This document shows, in pieces, positions 25,272-29,156 of a DNA stretch of 64,000 bases. Position 1 is the stretch's first letter; each line of letters begins with the position of its first letter. Source of the DNA: Synechococcus sp. CS-1329 (GTDB lineage: Bacteria; Cyanobacteriota; Cyanobacteriia; PCC-6307; Cyanobiaceae); NCBI RefSeq assembly GCF_025128055.1, contig NZ_JAHLYS010000016.1:1-64000 (forward strand), given 5' to 3'. The position numbers and the translations under genes were made by a program. Below the pieces are notes generated by a model. It ran no database searches, had not been told where the DNA came from, and worked only from the letters and a program-made list of their open reading frames with translations.

Positions 25272-26096
25272 ATGACCGACCAATCGAAGCCCGAATTCGG
25301 CGAATCCCCGCCTGCTTACCCCTACGGTCCGGCCGAGCTGGCCTTCGACCCGGAACTGCTGGCGGGTGAGCTGGCCCATGAGCTGCTGGGGGATCCGCTC
25401 GAAGATCTCGATGCGCTCGAGCCCGCCGAGGCCGACATCGCCGCTGAATGTGACCTGGGGCTGGAGTGGCTCAGGGGCGTTCACGATCAGCGCATGCAGG
25501 GGCTGCGCATTTTCTGCGAGCACCGCGACCCCCGGGCAATCCCGCTGCTGTTGCCGCTGCTGGAGGCCACCTGTCCGATTCTGCGCATGAGCGCGGTCTA
25601 TGCCCTCGGCCGCAATCCCGATCCGCGTGCGGTGGCGCCACTGTTGGCGCTGCTGCAGGACGACAGCAACGGCTACGTGCGCAAGGCGGTGGCCTGGAGC
25701 CTGGGCAACTACCCCGAGTCTCCGGTGCTCAACCCCCTGATCCGGGCCCTTCAGAACGACATCGCCGCGGTGAGGCTGTGGGCGGCTGGGTCGCTGGCGG
25801 ATGTGGGCGGGACGGGAGCCGCCAAGGCCGACCAGGCCGCCGCCCAGTTGCTGGTGAGCCTGCGCATTGACTCCGAGCCCGTGGTGCGCAGCAACAGCGC
25901 CTGGTCGCTCGGGCGCCTCTACGACCATCTGGTGGTTCCGCGCCAGGGGGAACTGGTGGAAGCGCTGGTGGCGGTCATGCTCCACGATGGCGATTCGACG
26001 GTGCGGGACGAGGCGCGGGTGGCCCTGGAGCAGCTGGAGAGTCCGGCGGTGCTGGAGCGGCTGCAGACCCTGGTGGAAGACGGTCTCATCCGCTGA
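25272..26096 (+). CDS. HEAT-repeat protein
   Basis: A 274-residue soluble protein: an acidic first 70 residues followed by five or so HEAT/PBS-lyase-type repeats (for example DPRAIPLLLPLLEATCPILR, DPRAVAPLLALLQDDSNGYV, SPVLNPLIRALQNDIAAVR). These helical repeats are protein-binding scaffolds; cyanobacterial members include phycobilin lyases and NblB, but nothing here shows lyase activity. It precedes the DUF2997-Ycf35 genes. Confidence 0.8.
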   Translation: MTDQSKPEFGESPPAYPYGPAELAFDPELLAGELAHELLGDPLEDLDALEPAEADIAAECDLGLEWLRGVHDQRMQGLRIFCEHRDPRAIPLLLPLLEATCPILRMSAVYALGRNPDPRAVAPLLALLQDDSNGYVRKAVAWSLGNYPESPVLNPLIRALQNDIAAVRLWAAGSLADVGGTGAAKADQAAAQLLVSLRIDSEPVVRSNSAWSLGRLYDHLVVPRQGELVEALVAVMLHDGDSTVRDEARVALEQLESPAVLERLQTLVEDGLIR

Positions 26097-26155: not shown

Positions 26156-26368
26156 ATGGCCCAGACCACCATCCGCTTCCGTATCCGTCCCGATGGGCGT
26201 GTCGAGGAGCTTGTGGAAGGCGTCCAGGGTGCTGCCTGCGAGCAGCTCACCGAACGGATCGAGAACCAACTCGGTTCTCTGCAGCAGCGCCGCTCCACCT
26301 CCGAGGCCTTTGTGGCCGCAGCTCAGGAGGTCACCCCCTCCGTGGGCGTGCACCAGCGCTCCGCCTGA
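26156..26368 (+). CDS. DUF2997 protein
   Basis: A 70-residue protein matching DUF2997, with the core TIRFRIRPDGRVEELVEGVQG. The family is unexplained and travels with Ycf35 (DUF1257), as here, 28 bases upstream of it. Such pairing suggests the two act together. Confidence 0.85.
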   Translation: MAQTTIRFRIRPDGRVEELVEGVQGAACEQLTERIENQLGSLQQRRSTSEAFVAAAQEVTPSVGVHQRSA

Positions 26369-26396
26369 GTTAAAACCGTCCTTTTCGGCCGCTCCC

Positions 26397-26789
26397 ATGT
26401 CCCACTTCAGCACCGTCAAAACCGAACTGCGCGACCGCGGGGCCCTGCTGGGCGCCCTGCGGGACCTGGGCCACGAGCCTGAGCTGGGGGAGCGGCCGGT
26501 GCGCGGCTACCGCGGTCAGACCGTCCTGGCCGAAGTGGCCCTCACCCGCGACGACGGTTGTGATATCGGCTTCCGCTGGAATGCCGACTCCGCCAGCTAT
26601 GAGCTGGTCACCGACCTGGAGCTGTGGAAGCAGCCGATTCCGGTGGAGCGTTTCCTCTCCCAGATCACCCAGCGCTATGCCCTGCGCCAGGTGCTGGCGG
26701 CCTCGGCCCAGGAGGGCTTTCAGGTGAGCGAGCAGACCTCCAGCCTGGACGGATCGATTGAACTGGTGGTGACCCGCTGGGATGGCTGA
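26397..26789 (+). CDS. ycf35: Ycf35 (DUF1257) protein
   Basis: A 130-residue protein of the Ycf35 family, also encoded in red-algal plastids; function unknown. It begins MSHFSTVKTELRDRGALLGAL and contains GYDIGFRW-like DDGCDIGFRWNADSASYEL and ITQRYALRQVL. It sits between DUF2997 and a 4Fe-4S ferredoxin and overlaps the ferredoxin start by 8 bases, indicating one operon. Confidence 0.9.
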   Translation: MSHFSTVKTELRDRGALLGALRDLGHEPELGERPVRGYRGQTVLAEVALTRDDGCDIGFRWNADSASYELVTDLELWKQPIPVERFLSQITQRYALRQVLAASAQEGFQVSEQTSSLDGSIELVVTRWDG

Positions 26790-27171
26790 AGTGGATCCTT
26801 CGGTGGCTTTCGCCGCCCCTGCCCGCAGCCGTGAGCAACCCAGCGGCCAGGAACCGCTGCTGGGCGGAAGCCTGCGTCAGCAAGCCGTCTGGGTGGATGA
26901 GGCCGTGTGTATCGGCTGCCGCTACTGCGCCCATGTGGCGGGCAACACGTTTCTGGTGGAACCGGTCTGGGGTCGCTCCCGGGCGATCCGTCAGGACGGC
27001 GACAGCACCGAGACCATCCAGGAAGCGATCGACACCTGCCCAGTGGATTGCATCCACTGGGTGCCCTACGAGGACGTGTCCCAGCTCGACCATCGCCTGC
27101 GCTCCCAGGAGCTGTTGCCCCTGGGTTATCCGAGCCAATCCCGCGTTCAGCGCACGTTGCCTCGGCCTTGA
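26782..27171 (+). CDS. single-cluster 4Fe-4S ferredoxin
   Basis: A 129-residue electron carrier with one cluster-binding set: CIGCRYC (three cysteines) and CPVDC further on, in the order seen in cyanobacterial and plant DnaJ-linked ferredoxins. The first 40 residues are polar and variable. It overlaps ycf35 by 8 bases at its start and the aldo/keto reductase by 4 bases at its end (TTGA), so the three are likely translated together; it may pass electrons to one of them (inference). Confidence 0.88.
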   Translation: MAEVDPSVAFAAPARSREQPSGQEPLLGGSLRQQAVWVDEAVCIGCRYCAHVAGNTFLVEPVWGRSRAIRQDGDSTETIQEAIDTCPVDCIHWVPYEDVSQLDHRLRSQELLPLGYPSQSRVQRTLPRP

Positions 27172-28376
27172 TTGCGGCGTTGCCCTGCCGTCGCTTCGGG
27201 CGCACGGAATTGCCCATGCCGGTGCTGTCCCTGGGGGGCATGCGCTACCAGCAGAGCTGGAGCGACCTGCCGGCCGCTGAGATCACGGCCCAGAGCCAGG
27301 CCAATCTGCTCGCCACCCTGGAGAAGGCGGTGGCGGCTGGGTTTCATCACATTGAAACCGCCCGCCACTACGGAACCTCCGAGCGGCAACTGGGAGACCT
27401 GCTGCGGCAGGTGCCCGATCCCCGCCGCATCCTCCAGACCAAGGTGCCGCCCCACGACGATCCCGTCCAGTTCGAGGCGGAGCTGGAGCTGAGCTTCGAG
27501 CGGTTGCGCATCGAGCGGCTCGATCTGCTCGGCATCCATGGCCTCAACCTGCCGGAGCATCTTGAGCAGACCCTGCGGCCGGGAGGCTGCCTCGATGTGG
27601 TGCGGCGCTGGCAGCAGCAGGGGCGCATCGGCCATGTGGGCTTCTCCACCCACGCGCCCCTGCCCCTGATTCTCGAAGCGATCGCCAGCGATGCCTTCGA
27701 TTACATCAATCTGCACTGGTACTACATCCGCCAGGACAATCGCCCGGCCCTGGAGGCTGCCCTCCGCCACGACATGGGCGTGTTCGTGATCAGCCCCACC
27801 GACAAGGGCGGCCACCTGCACAGTCCATCCGAGCGGATCAGCGAGCTGTGTGCGCCGCTGCACCCGATCGAATTCAACGACCTGTTCTGCCTGCATGAGG
27901 CGACGATCCACACCATCAGCGTCGGCGCTGCCGGCCCGGCTGATCTCGACCTGCACCTGCAGGCGGTGACCCGGCTGCCCGAGGCCGAGCGCTGGTTGCT
28001 CCCTGTGCAGGAGCGGCTGGAGCACGCCAGGCAGGAGGCCCTCGGCGCCCCCTGGCTGGAGAGCTGGAGTGAGGGTCTTCCCCCCTGGGAGGCCACCCCT
28101 GGAGGCCTGAATCTGCCGGTGCTGCTCTGGCTGCACAATCTGCTGGAGGCCTGGGATCTGGAGGCGTACGCCCGCGCCCGCTACGGGCTGCTGGGCCAGG
28201 GGAGCCATTGGTTTCCCGGCGCTAACGCCGAGGCCCTCGACCGGGAGGTGAGCGAAGCCGAATTGATGGCGGTACTGGGGGGCAGCCCCTGGGCCCAGCG
28301 GATTCCAGCGCTGCTGCGCGGCCTGCGGGAGCGGCTCGGGGGCAGCAGTGTGCGGCGGTTGATGGCCGATGCGTGA
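27168..28376 (+). CDS. aldo/keto reductase
   Basis: A 402-residue TIM-barrel NADPH-dependent oxidoreductase. The opening RRFGRTELPMPVLSLGG is the usual barrel start, so translation must begin before the ATG at 27216; TTG at 27168 (or 27180) was chosen. Catalytic residues appear as HIETARHYGTSE (Glu near 62 where most relatives have Asp; Tyr in HYG), Lys in ILQTKVPP (near 92) and His in LGIHGLNL (near 122). Relatives with IETAR..YG often have a C-terminal 4Fe-4S domain; this protein has no such cysteines, but a ferredoxin gene overlaps its start. Confidence 0.82.
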   Translation: MIAALPCRRFGRTELPMPVLSLGGMRYQQSWSDLPAAEITAQSQANLLATLEKAVAAGFHHIETARHYGTSERQLGDLLRQVPDPRRILQTKVPPHDDPVQFEAELELSFERLRIERLDLLGIHGLNLPEHLEQTLRPGGCLDVVRRWQQQGRIGHVGFSTHAPLPLILEAIASDAFDYINLHWYYIRQDNRPALEAALRHDMGVFVISPTDKGGHLHSPSERISELCAPLHPIEFNDLFCLHEATIHTISVGAAGPADLDLHLQAVTRLPEAERWLLPVQERLEHARQEALGAPWLESWSEGLPPWEATPGGLNLPVLLWLHNLLEAWDLEAYARARYGLLGQGSHWFPGANAEALDREVSEAELMAVLGGSPWAQRIPALLRGLRERLGGSSVRRLMADA

Positions 28377-29156
28377 TCAGGCCAGCGGCTGCTTGGCCGG
28401 TAGACCCACGGCCCTCGGATAGCTGGCGGGGCAAGGGGAGCTGGGCCTGAGCACCACCGCATGGCGCACGCCCCGCCCGCCCGGTAGGTCGATCCGCTCC
28501 ACCCGCTCCACCTCGGCGTGCAGGCTGGTGGCGGCCTGCTCCAGGCAGGCCAGATCCTCGGGGCTCCACTGGCCGCGGTAGAGCAGGGCCCGGCCACTGG
28601 CGCTGAGCAGGGGCACCAGGTACTCCGCCACCACGGGGGCGGAAGCCACCGCCCGCGCCATGGCCCAGTCCTGGCGGCCGCGGCAACTGGCGGCGTGGCC
28701 GGTGGCCTCCGCCCGCTCCCAGCGCACCTGAACCCGCTGGCCCAGGCCCAGACTCTCAGCCATGGCTTTCACAGCCTCCGCCTTGCGCCCGACGGAATCC
28801 ACCAGGGTGAGCCGGGCGTGTGGCAGGGCGATCGCCAGGGCCAGGCCGGGGAAGCCCCCACCGGTGCCCACATCGAGGCAGCGCAGGGGATGGGCGGGGG
28901 GAGTGGGGGCGTTGAGCAGCTGACGCCAGGGCCAGAGGCTGTCGTACACCTGGGCGATCCAGTAATCGTCGCCATCCACCAGGCGGGTGAGGTTGAGGCG
29001 GGCATTCCACTGGCGCAGCTGCTGCTGCAGGGCCATCAACAGGTGCAACTGCTCCGGGGTGGGCTCCCAGGCCAGGCTGTCCCAGAGGCCAGAGGGAACC
29101 GGATCGGCGGGGACCGTGATCACTGCAGCACTGATGGGGGAGCTCTCTAGGATCAC
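28377..29156 (-). CDS. rsmG: 16S rRNA (guanine527-N7)-methyltransferase RsmG
   Basis: RsmG (GidB) adds the m7G527 mark to 16S rRNA using S-adenosylmethionine. The 259-residue protein shows NLTRLVDGDDYWIAQVYDSL (about 58-77) and the SAM site LDVGTGGGFPGLALAIALP (about 95-113), then VDSVGRKAEAV. It abuts the convergent aldo/keto reductase and is divergent from the J-domain gene. Confidence 0.95.
   Translation of the reverse strand: MILESSPISAAVITVPADPVPSGLWDSLAWEPTPEQLHLLMALQQQLRQWNARLNLTRLVDGDDYWIAQVYDSLWPWRQLLNAPTPPAHPLRCLDVGTGGGFPGLALAIALPHARLTLVDSVGRKAEAVKAMAESLGLGQRVQVRWERAEATGHAASCRGRQDWAMARAVASAPVVAEYLVPLLSASGRALLYRGQWSPEDLACLEQAATSLHAEVERVERIDLPGGRGVRHAVVLRPSSPCPASYPRAVGLPAKQPLA

Follow-up and report, generated by a model that had tools for sequence, protein, structure and literature searches.

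The stretch of DNA analysed here, 64,000 nucleotides of a contig of Synechococcus sp. CS-1329 (the window), carries at positions 26156-28376 four consecutive genes that encode a DUF2997 protein, the DUF1257 protein Ycf35, a 4Fe-4S ferredoxin of the Fed7 type and an aldo/keto reductase. The question raised by this locus is which of the four genes form a unit and whether that unit carries electrons between NADPH and a Ycf35-linked step, as had originally been suggested from the sequence. We find that the DUF2997-Ycf35 pair forms the core of the locus, to which neither ferredoxin nor reductase belongs, and that the recurrent genomic partner of this core is an AAA+ ATPase, in places together with Hsp70. 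We propose that Ycf35 and DUF2997 are predicted partner subunits of a Ycf46-type remodelling ATPase and that the Fed7-linked copy represents a redox-tuned phototroph branch; judging from sequences and gene neighbourhoods, we assign this reading a probability of roughly 0.55. The two proteins are probably helpers of an AAA+ ATPase rather than a new electron-transfer pathway.

For Ycf35 and Ycf46, both retained in plastids, there is no consensus on function, and no target has been settled for the stress ferredoxin Fed7. If the proposal is true, the questions about these three proteins would merge into that of a single testable ATP-driven complex, and the copies of the pair found in cyanophages would point to a step of photosynthesis worth viral control. 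The duf2997-ycf35-fed7 cluster as such is already known. In the accessible portions of the literature on Ycf35, DUF1257, DUF2997, Fed7 and Ycf46, no paper unites Ycf46, Ycf35 and DUF2997 in a single gene cluster, and neither cyanophages nor an AAA+ gene cluster are linked to Ycf35 or DUF2997.

Conservation of the DUF2997-Ycf35-Fed7 trio

Gene order was counted in the 30 best-scoring loci of the window's class, Cyanobacteriia, the window's own locus included (L003-L032). A ferredoxin with a five-cysteine pattern follows directly after Ycf35 in all 30 loci, and DUF2997 precedes Ycf35 in 29, the remaining locus being cut by a contig end. Because this order recurs across the 30 loci, the neighbourhood seen in the window is more than a chance arrangement, and the trio is a genuine conserved operon, one member of which, Fed7, is a redox protein described in the literature. 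Identical genes in identical order have been named 'cluster g' (Cassier-Chauvat and Chauvat 2014, PMC4284462), which Table 1 of that paper marks in most of the listed cyanobacteria, Cyanobium gracile and marine Synechococcus among them. In the part of the paper available, neither a reductase nor an AAA+ ATPase, Hsp70 or copies in phages are mentioned in the cluster g legend, and the string 'aldo' has 0 occurrences in the text.

According to the same sections of PMC4284462, the cysteines of Synechocystis Fed7 are C53, C56, C59, C96 and C100, the protein is redox-active and tied to FTR and glutaredoxin 2, and it is dispensable under standard conditions, its deletion resulting in weaker tolerance of oxidative, metal and salt stress and of iron limitation. 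Its two-hybrid partners are the catalytic chain of FTR and the DnaJ-like protein Sll1384, and photosynthetic eukaryotes (algae) have DnaJ-Fed composite proteins.

A conserved gene order does not by itself imply a common biochemical step, and Fed7 and the Ycf35-DUF2997 pair could merely be stress genes co-regulated by SigD, iron and high light. This explanation, which we regard as rather unlikely, would accommodate the SigD dependence of ssl1263, fed7 and ycf35 in Synechocystis under standard conditions (reported in the available part of PMC8875361), the response of fed7 to iron and light (in that of PMC4284462) and the fact that phages take the pair without Fed7. However, the trio is complete in every one of the 30 loci that is not cut, as well as in most genomes of the published Table 1 as far as accessible, and an order kept so widely is more than co-regulation usually requires.

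The bare pair in cyanophages

DUF1257 was detected in 15 phage records, all of them Prochlorococcus phages or marine single-cell viruses. For a larger sample we used the best 80 of 479 relatives on viral contigs, all of which were required to match one N-terminal pattern. DUF2997 lies directly upstream of Ycf35 and overlaps its start as called in 77 of these 80 loci, the other three being cut by contig ends, and all 80 lacked a recognisable relative of Fed7, of the AAA protein and of the reductase. Consequently, the irreducible unit is DUF2997-Ycf35. The pair is located near hli and psbA genes in P-SSM7 and near hsp20 and DNA polymerase genes in P-SSM2. A tree bears on the origin of the phage copies: all 42 phage rows form one clade (100/99), which joins the window's family (99/85). 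Near-copies were removed with a k-mer filter from both the tree and the structure alignments discussed below; both also exclude three copies of the window locus as well as open reading frames that contain stops or fall outside the length range. When an AAA-linked DUF1257 served as the query instead, no viral relative was found.

Association with AAA+ ATPases

A genome collection was scanned with a DUF1257 protein from outside the class as the query, which yielded 13 loci, 7 of them not labelled cyanobacterial (2 Myxococcota/Myxococcales, 1 Proteobacteria and 4 'bacterium'). The order AAA-DUF1257-DUF2997 is present in all 7 non-cyanobacterial loci, in which neither Fed7 nor the reductase had a match; AAA lies upstream of DUF1257 in 3 of the 6 cyanobacterial loci of the same scan. 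Cyanobacterial plasmids also carry copies of DUF1257 and DUF2997 near an AAA family ATPase. As a separate observation, FHA-domain proteins stand directly before AAA-DUF1257-DUF2997 in two non-cyanobacterial loci (L172:4391-6352 and L178:1870-5559).

Within the class, an ATPase type designated AAA-2 is followed directly by DUF1257 in 30 of 30 loci (L232-L261), with gaps of 116-202 bases. The DUF1257 proteins linked to AAA-2 are 78-100% identical to one member across these loci, far more conserved than the Fed7-linked Ycf35, and the same pair occurs in 10 of 10 class regions retrieved by another route, part of them from genomes shared with the 30. No AAA-2 was found in the 5 genomes searched of family f1, each of which has one AAA match.

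Chromosomal loci linked to AAA were sampled from 20 regions hand-chosen for second copies, several of which were known beforehand to have DUF2997 nearby; 10 such loci were present, and the open reading frame filter dropped the DUF1257 gene in some of the chosen regions (such as L151, L153, L155, L156 and L163). Genes for AAA, DUF1257, DUF2997, a GrpE-like protein and Hsp70 occur all together in 6 of the 10, one more locus has four of the five genes, and three have AAA-DUF1257 alone. The called Hsp70 frame is short in L160, and in L159 the AAA-DUF1257 group faces the DUF2997-GrpE-Hsp70 group. The five-gene set is also found on a Pseudanabaena plasmid and in G155, which belongs to the phylum but not to the class (L211, tblastn). 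The GrpE-like gene is called GrpE only in the plasmid record, and for its chromosomal relative from L161, the one relative tested, neither Pfam nor NCBIfam gave a match to a GrpE model. A HEPN-domain protein is encoded upstream of the five-gene cluster in two genomes (L160:8842-9876 and L161:2995-4053).

In the window's own genome, the sole full-length AAA homologue lies on another contig (G000:C18:5697-7151) and shares 46% identity with the cluster type and 53% with a third, solitary type. The genome also has a second DUF1257 gene (contig C48), whose product is only distantly related to the AAA-2 partner, at 30% identity.

Possible relation of the ATPase to Ycf46

The ATPases linked to DUF1257 are approximately 500 amino acids long, and their C-terminal half contains both core and lid of the AAA module, in which they resemble Ycf46 and the SpoVK/Ycf46/Vps4 ATPases. 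In the excerpts of the literature available, Ycf46 is placed in the SpoVK/Ycf46/Vps4 class of AAA+ ATPases (PMC10954446) and slr0374 is equated with Ycf46 (PMC7496141, citing Jiang et al. 2015). Excerpts concerning plastids report that ycf35 and ycf46 are retained in the red lineage and that both are pseudogenes in the Nothogenia plastid (PMC5057469), list the two genes in one presence row alongside two other genes (table, PMC2765969), and count both with the genes by which marine red algae differ from freshwater ones (PMC5940233). A Ycf46-type identity of the ATPase would fit this part of the plastid data.

Distribution and joint loss with photosystem II genes

A DUF1257 match is present in 185 of 186 genomes of the class (a count obtained by subtraction). 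In three genomes of one genus (G265, G292 and G370), DUF1257 is absent or present only as broken copies with stops, DUF2997 is broken or absent, no intact full-length AAA remains, and the photosystem II reaction-centre genes are likewise broken or absent; in G292 the broken AAA adjoins the broken DUF1257. A fourth genome of the genus, G261, is intact and retains DUF1257, DUF2997, AAA and the photosystem II genes. The three genomes are presumably those of endosymbionts that are losing photosynthesis.

Outside the class, DUF1257 occurs in 10 of 200 genomes of the phylum (again by subtraction), and none of the 6 of these genomes that were tested has a photosystem II reaction-centre gene. A full-length AAA is present in 9 of the 10 genomes with DUF1257 versus 6 of 19 without (Fisher p 0.005, relatedness uncorrected), the 19 comparison genomes being those listed without a DUF1257 match, of about 190. 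The original expectation that the function is general in oxygenic phototrophs thus holds as far as the near-universal presence in the class and the decay with photosystem II genes are concerned, and is too narrow in view of the Myxococcota, the 'Proteobacteria' bin and the outside-class relatives. Confinement of the family to oxygenic phototrophs is ruled out by the 10 outside-class genomes together with Myxococcota and others.

Proposed role of Ycf35 and DUF2997

Since an AAA+ ATPase recurs as the genomic partner, we propose an adaptor role for the two proteins: Ycf35 and DUF2997 would form an obligate pair that supplies a Ycf46-type AAA+ ATPase with adaptor or cofactor subunits. The pair and the ATPase would constitute an ATP-driven protein-remodelling machine, encoded in several lineages together with Hsp70 and a GrpE-like protein. 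Cyanobacteria would possess three branches of this machine, namely 1) AAA-2 with its own DUF1257 in a nearly invariant two-gene cluster, 2) DUF1257 with the genes for AAA, DUF2997, GrpE-like protein and Hsp70, and 3) the branch in the window, where no ATPase gene is adjacent, Fed7 would take its place and the full-length ATPase homologue is encoded elsewhere in the genome. Fed7 might then be a redox switch or an electron supplier that tunes remodelling of a client in the photosynthetic apparatus under light, iron or CO2 stress. The DUF2997-Ycf35 pair of cyanophages would redirect the host ATPase, and the aldo/keto reductase would be a later neighbour. Gene orders, distributions, co-decay and phage origin are observations of this analysis, the interactions and phenotypes of Fed7 and the control by SigD come from publications, and we infer that the proteins associate physically with the ATPase, how this partnership acts and on what client.

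By analogy, the published contact of Fed7 with DnaJ and the DnaJ-Fed composites agree with a chaperone setting. In both of those cases a Fed7-type ferredoxin is tied to an Hsp70 co-chaperone (PMC4284462, as far as available), and in the family studied here DUF1257 and DUF2997 are tied to GrpE-like and Hsp70 genes in a branch that does not include Fed7. The published tie consists of a two-hybrid contact and a fusion, unlike the tie by gene order found here. A more inclusive version of the proposal, in which Ycf35 and DUF2997 would be dedicated subunits of a widespread, unrecognised Ycf46-type AAA+/Hsp70 system, one branch of which oxygenic phototrophs would have brought under photosynthetic redox control by way of Fed7 and retained in red-lineage plastids as ycf35 and ycf46, and whose host ATPase cyanophages would steer with the pair during infection, is more tentative, and we consider it somewhat less probable than even odds.

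Several observations weigh against the proposal. The window operon itself contains no ATPase gene, the AAA+ neighbours being those of other genomes (7 of 7 non-cyanobacterial and 30 of 30 AAA-2 loci). DUF2997 is beside the AAA-2/DUF1257 pair in 0 of the 30 loci. In most outside-class genomes that have both DUF1257 and AAA the two genes are unlinked, G155 being the linked exception; G220 has DUF1257 without a full-length AAA and without DUF2997, G180 has DUF1257 without DUF2997, and the 6 of 19 comparison genomes noted above have AAA without DUF1257. The joint losses with photosystem II genes may reflect general genome decay rather than a specific tie. The putative designation 'Ycf46-type' is drawn from size, architecture and one passage that counts Ycf46 with the AAA+ ATPases, and the Nannochloropsis plastids list ycf46 without ycf35 (PMC3999925, in the part available), which disfavours a strict pairing of ycf35 and ycf46 in plastids. 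Finally, on the Treponema succinifaciens plasmid pTRESU01 a DUF1257 gene (L262:4501-4908) lies amid tail sheath, baseplate and tail protein genes, and no AAA or DUF2997 is annotated in the 9.4 kb around it.

Invariant residues and predicted structures

Residues Ser2, His3 and Gly58 of Ycf35 are invariant in an alignment of 90 sequences (A5), and so are Gly14, Cys28, Thr32 and Gly40 of DUF2997 in an alignment of 72 (A6). Both alignments include the window; they were drawn from 99 and 84 references, respectively, with further rows removed by hand. The invariant residues likely mark contact or active sites.

The AlphaFold2 model of Ycf35 has a mean predicted local distance difference test score (pLDDT) of 90.8 and a predicted template modelling score (pTM) of 0.83, with strands at residues 5-11, 29-36, 42-49, 57-62, 67-72, 109-115 and 121-126 and a long helix at 83-105. 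A sequence search of the PDB with Ycf35 gave no match, and Foldseek against the PDB with the model returned nothing at E <= 0.001. The best VIA match is a KA1 domain (Z 6.1, root-mean-square deviation 3.3 over 78 residues), followed by many unrelated families. Middling fold matches include Bcs1 AAA-ATPase chains (Z 4.1-4.6) and AHSA1-like and START domains, and the arrangement may merely be a common one. For DUF2997 the model has low confidence (pLDDT 70.3, pTM 0.48), and weak sequence matches of this protein to copper ATPases, in their heavy-metal domains (E 0.056 at best), are a lead only. NCBIfam has no match for Ycf35 and one match, far under the cut-off, for DUF2997; neither protein matched an enzyme family in Pfam, NCBIfam or sequence searches.

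The aldo/keto reductase and the redox interpretation

Of the 30 best class loci, 12 have the reductase after the trio; a methyltransferase-like gene intervenes in 2 of these 12. A reductase relative is present in 140 of 140 class genomes searched and, with coordinates compared by eye, lies beside Ycf35 in at least 16 of them, all in families f1 (14 of 14 genomes) and f11 (2 of 2, behind the methyltransferase-like gene). Outside f1 and f11 no such adjacency was seen by eye among the matches listed, where breaks in fragmented assemblies could hide links. The reductase is a lineage-specific neighbour outside the conserved unit. Of the predicted four-gene redox unit, therefore, the trio with Fed7 stands and stays together, and the reductase splits off in most genomes. 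Because the reductase is unlinked in most genomes among the matches listed, electron flow from NADPH to the ferredoxin finds no support as the activity of a unit, and a four-gene NADPH redox chain as a conserved unit is rejected.

The window reductase has neither of the two C-terminal cysteine motifs by which the 4Fe-4S subtype of aldo/keto reductases is recognised. Both C-terminal cysteine motifs are absent from 4 of 4 orthologues read and present in 3 of 3 cyanobacterial paralogues read, to which the window reductase is 39-41% similar over their length; two iron-sulphur sites have apparently been lost in the window reductase and its orthologues. In G101, a genome without a Fed7-linked Ycf35, DUF2997 lies directly upstream of the reductase orthologue (L198:4142-5618), and this adjacency may indicate a functional tie between DUF2997 and the reductase. 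The methyltransferase-like gene of f11 (L013:2282-3043, function assigned by eye only) is located between fed7 and the reductase gene.

These results bear on the remaining form of the redox interpretation, in which Fed7 exchanges electrons with a Ycf35-DUF2997 enzyme and the reductase supplies or uses NADPH. The constant adjacency of Fed7 to Ycf35 (30 of 30 loci), the published redox activity of Fed7 with its ties to FTR and glutaredoxin 2 (PMC4284462, available part), the gene order in G101, and the invariant Cys28 of DUF2997 and Ser2/His3 of Ycf35, which could be functional, would all be in keeping with it. We nevertheless consider it quite unlikely, given that the reductase is beside Ycf35 only in f1 and f11 among the matches listed and lacks the cysteine motifs of its paralogues, that 80 phage loci have the pair without Fed7 or reductase and neither was matched in the non-cyanobacterial loci, and that Ycf35 and DUF2997 match no enzyme family. 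It is highly improbable that the pair is a toxin-antitoxin-like or mobile-element module domesticated in cyanobacteria: the overlapping two-gene format in phages, the presence of toxin-antitoxin genes and of a zeta-toxin family protein close to plasmid copies and the chromosomal HEPN-domain neighbours are set against near-universal chromosomal presence in the class, the high identity of the AAA-2-linked DUF1257 and loss alongside photosystem II genes, all of which fit a housekeeping role.

Genes of the window locus

The coordinates of the four genes and their neighbours are listed in Table 1.

Table 1. Genes at and around the DUF2997-Ycf35 locus of the window
Feature	Length (amino acids)	Positions	Strand	Evidence or remark
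HEAT-repeat protein	274	25272-26096	+	PF13646, E 7e-32; 59 bases upstream of DUF2997
DUF2997 protein	70	26156-26368	+	PF11211, E 1e-17
Ycf35/DUF1257 protein	130	26397-26789	+	PF06868, E 4e-36
4Fe-4S ferredoxin, Fed7 type	129	26782-27171	+	PF13370 Fer4_13, E 5e-14
Aldo/keto reductase	402	27168-28376	+	PF00248, E 9e-17
rsmG		28377-29156	minus	Convergent, directly after reductase

All four family assignments lie above the curated Pfam cut-offs, among them 64.1 bits versus 24.1 for DUF2997 and 123.8 versus 22.2 for Ycf35/DUF1257, with the profile covered in full in both cases, and 61.5 versus 24 for the reductase, over residues 20-214. The ferredoxin has the pattern C-x2-C-x2-C-(30-45)-C-x3-C and is assigned to the Fed7 type by its single-cluster pattern with a fifth cysteine and by the location of its gene beside duf2997-ycf35, as in cluster g. 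A gap of 28 bases separates DUF2997 from Ycf35. The originally described row of four genes with overlaps of 8 bases (Ycf35/ferredoxin) and 4 bases (ferredoxin/reductase) was confirmed, the second overlap on condition that TTG 27168 is the reductase start; a start at TTG 27180 would abolish it. Reductase relatives start near an RRFGRTEL motif.

Among the 30 trio loci, the upstream HEAT-repeat gene is kept only in families f1, f11 and f10 (L003-L015, L017 and L028). The window genome has a size of 2.58 Mb, and family f1 also includes small genomes of 1.6-1.9 Mb; the genome is presumably picocyanobacterial. The window copy is the single DUF2997 match in its genome. The second, remote DUF1257 paralogue of this genome (L034:8226-8570, minus strand, on G000:C48) lies away from any DUF2997 or AAA gene and is flanked by M61 peptidase-like and purN-like genes, as judged by eye.

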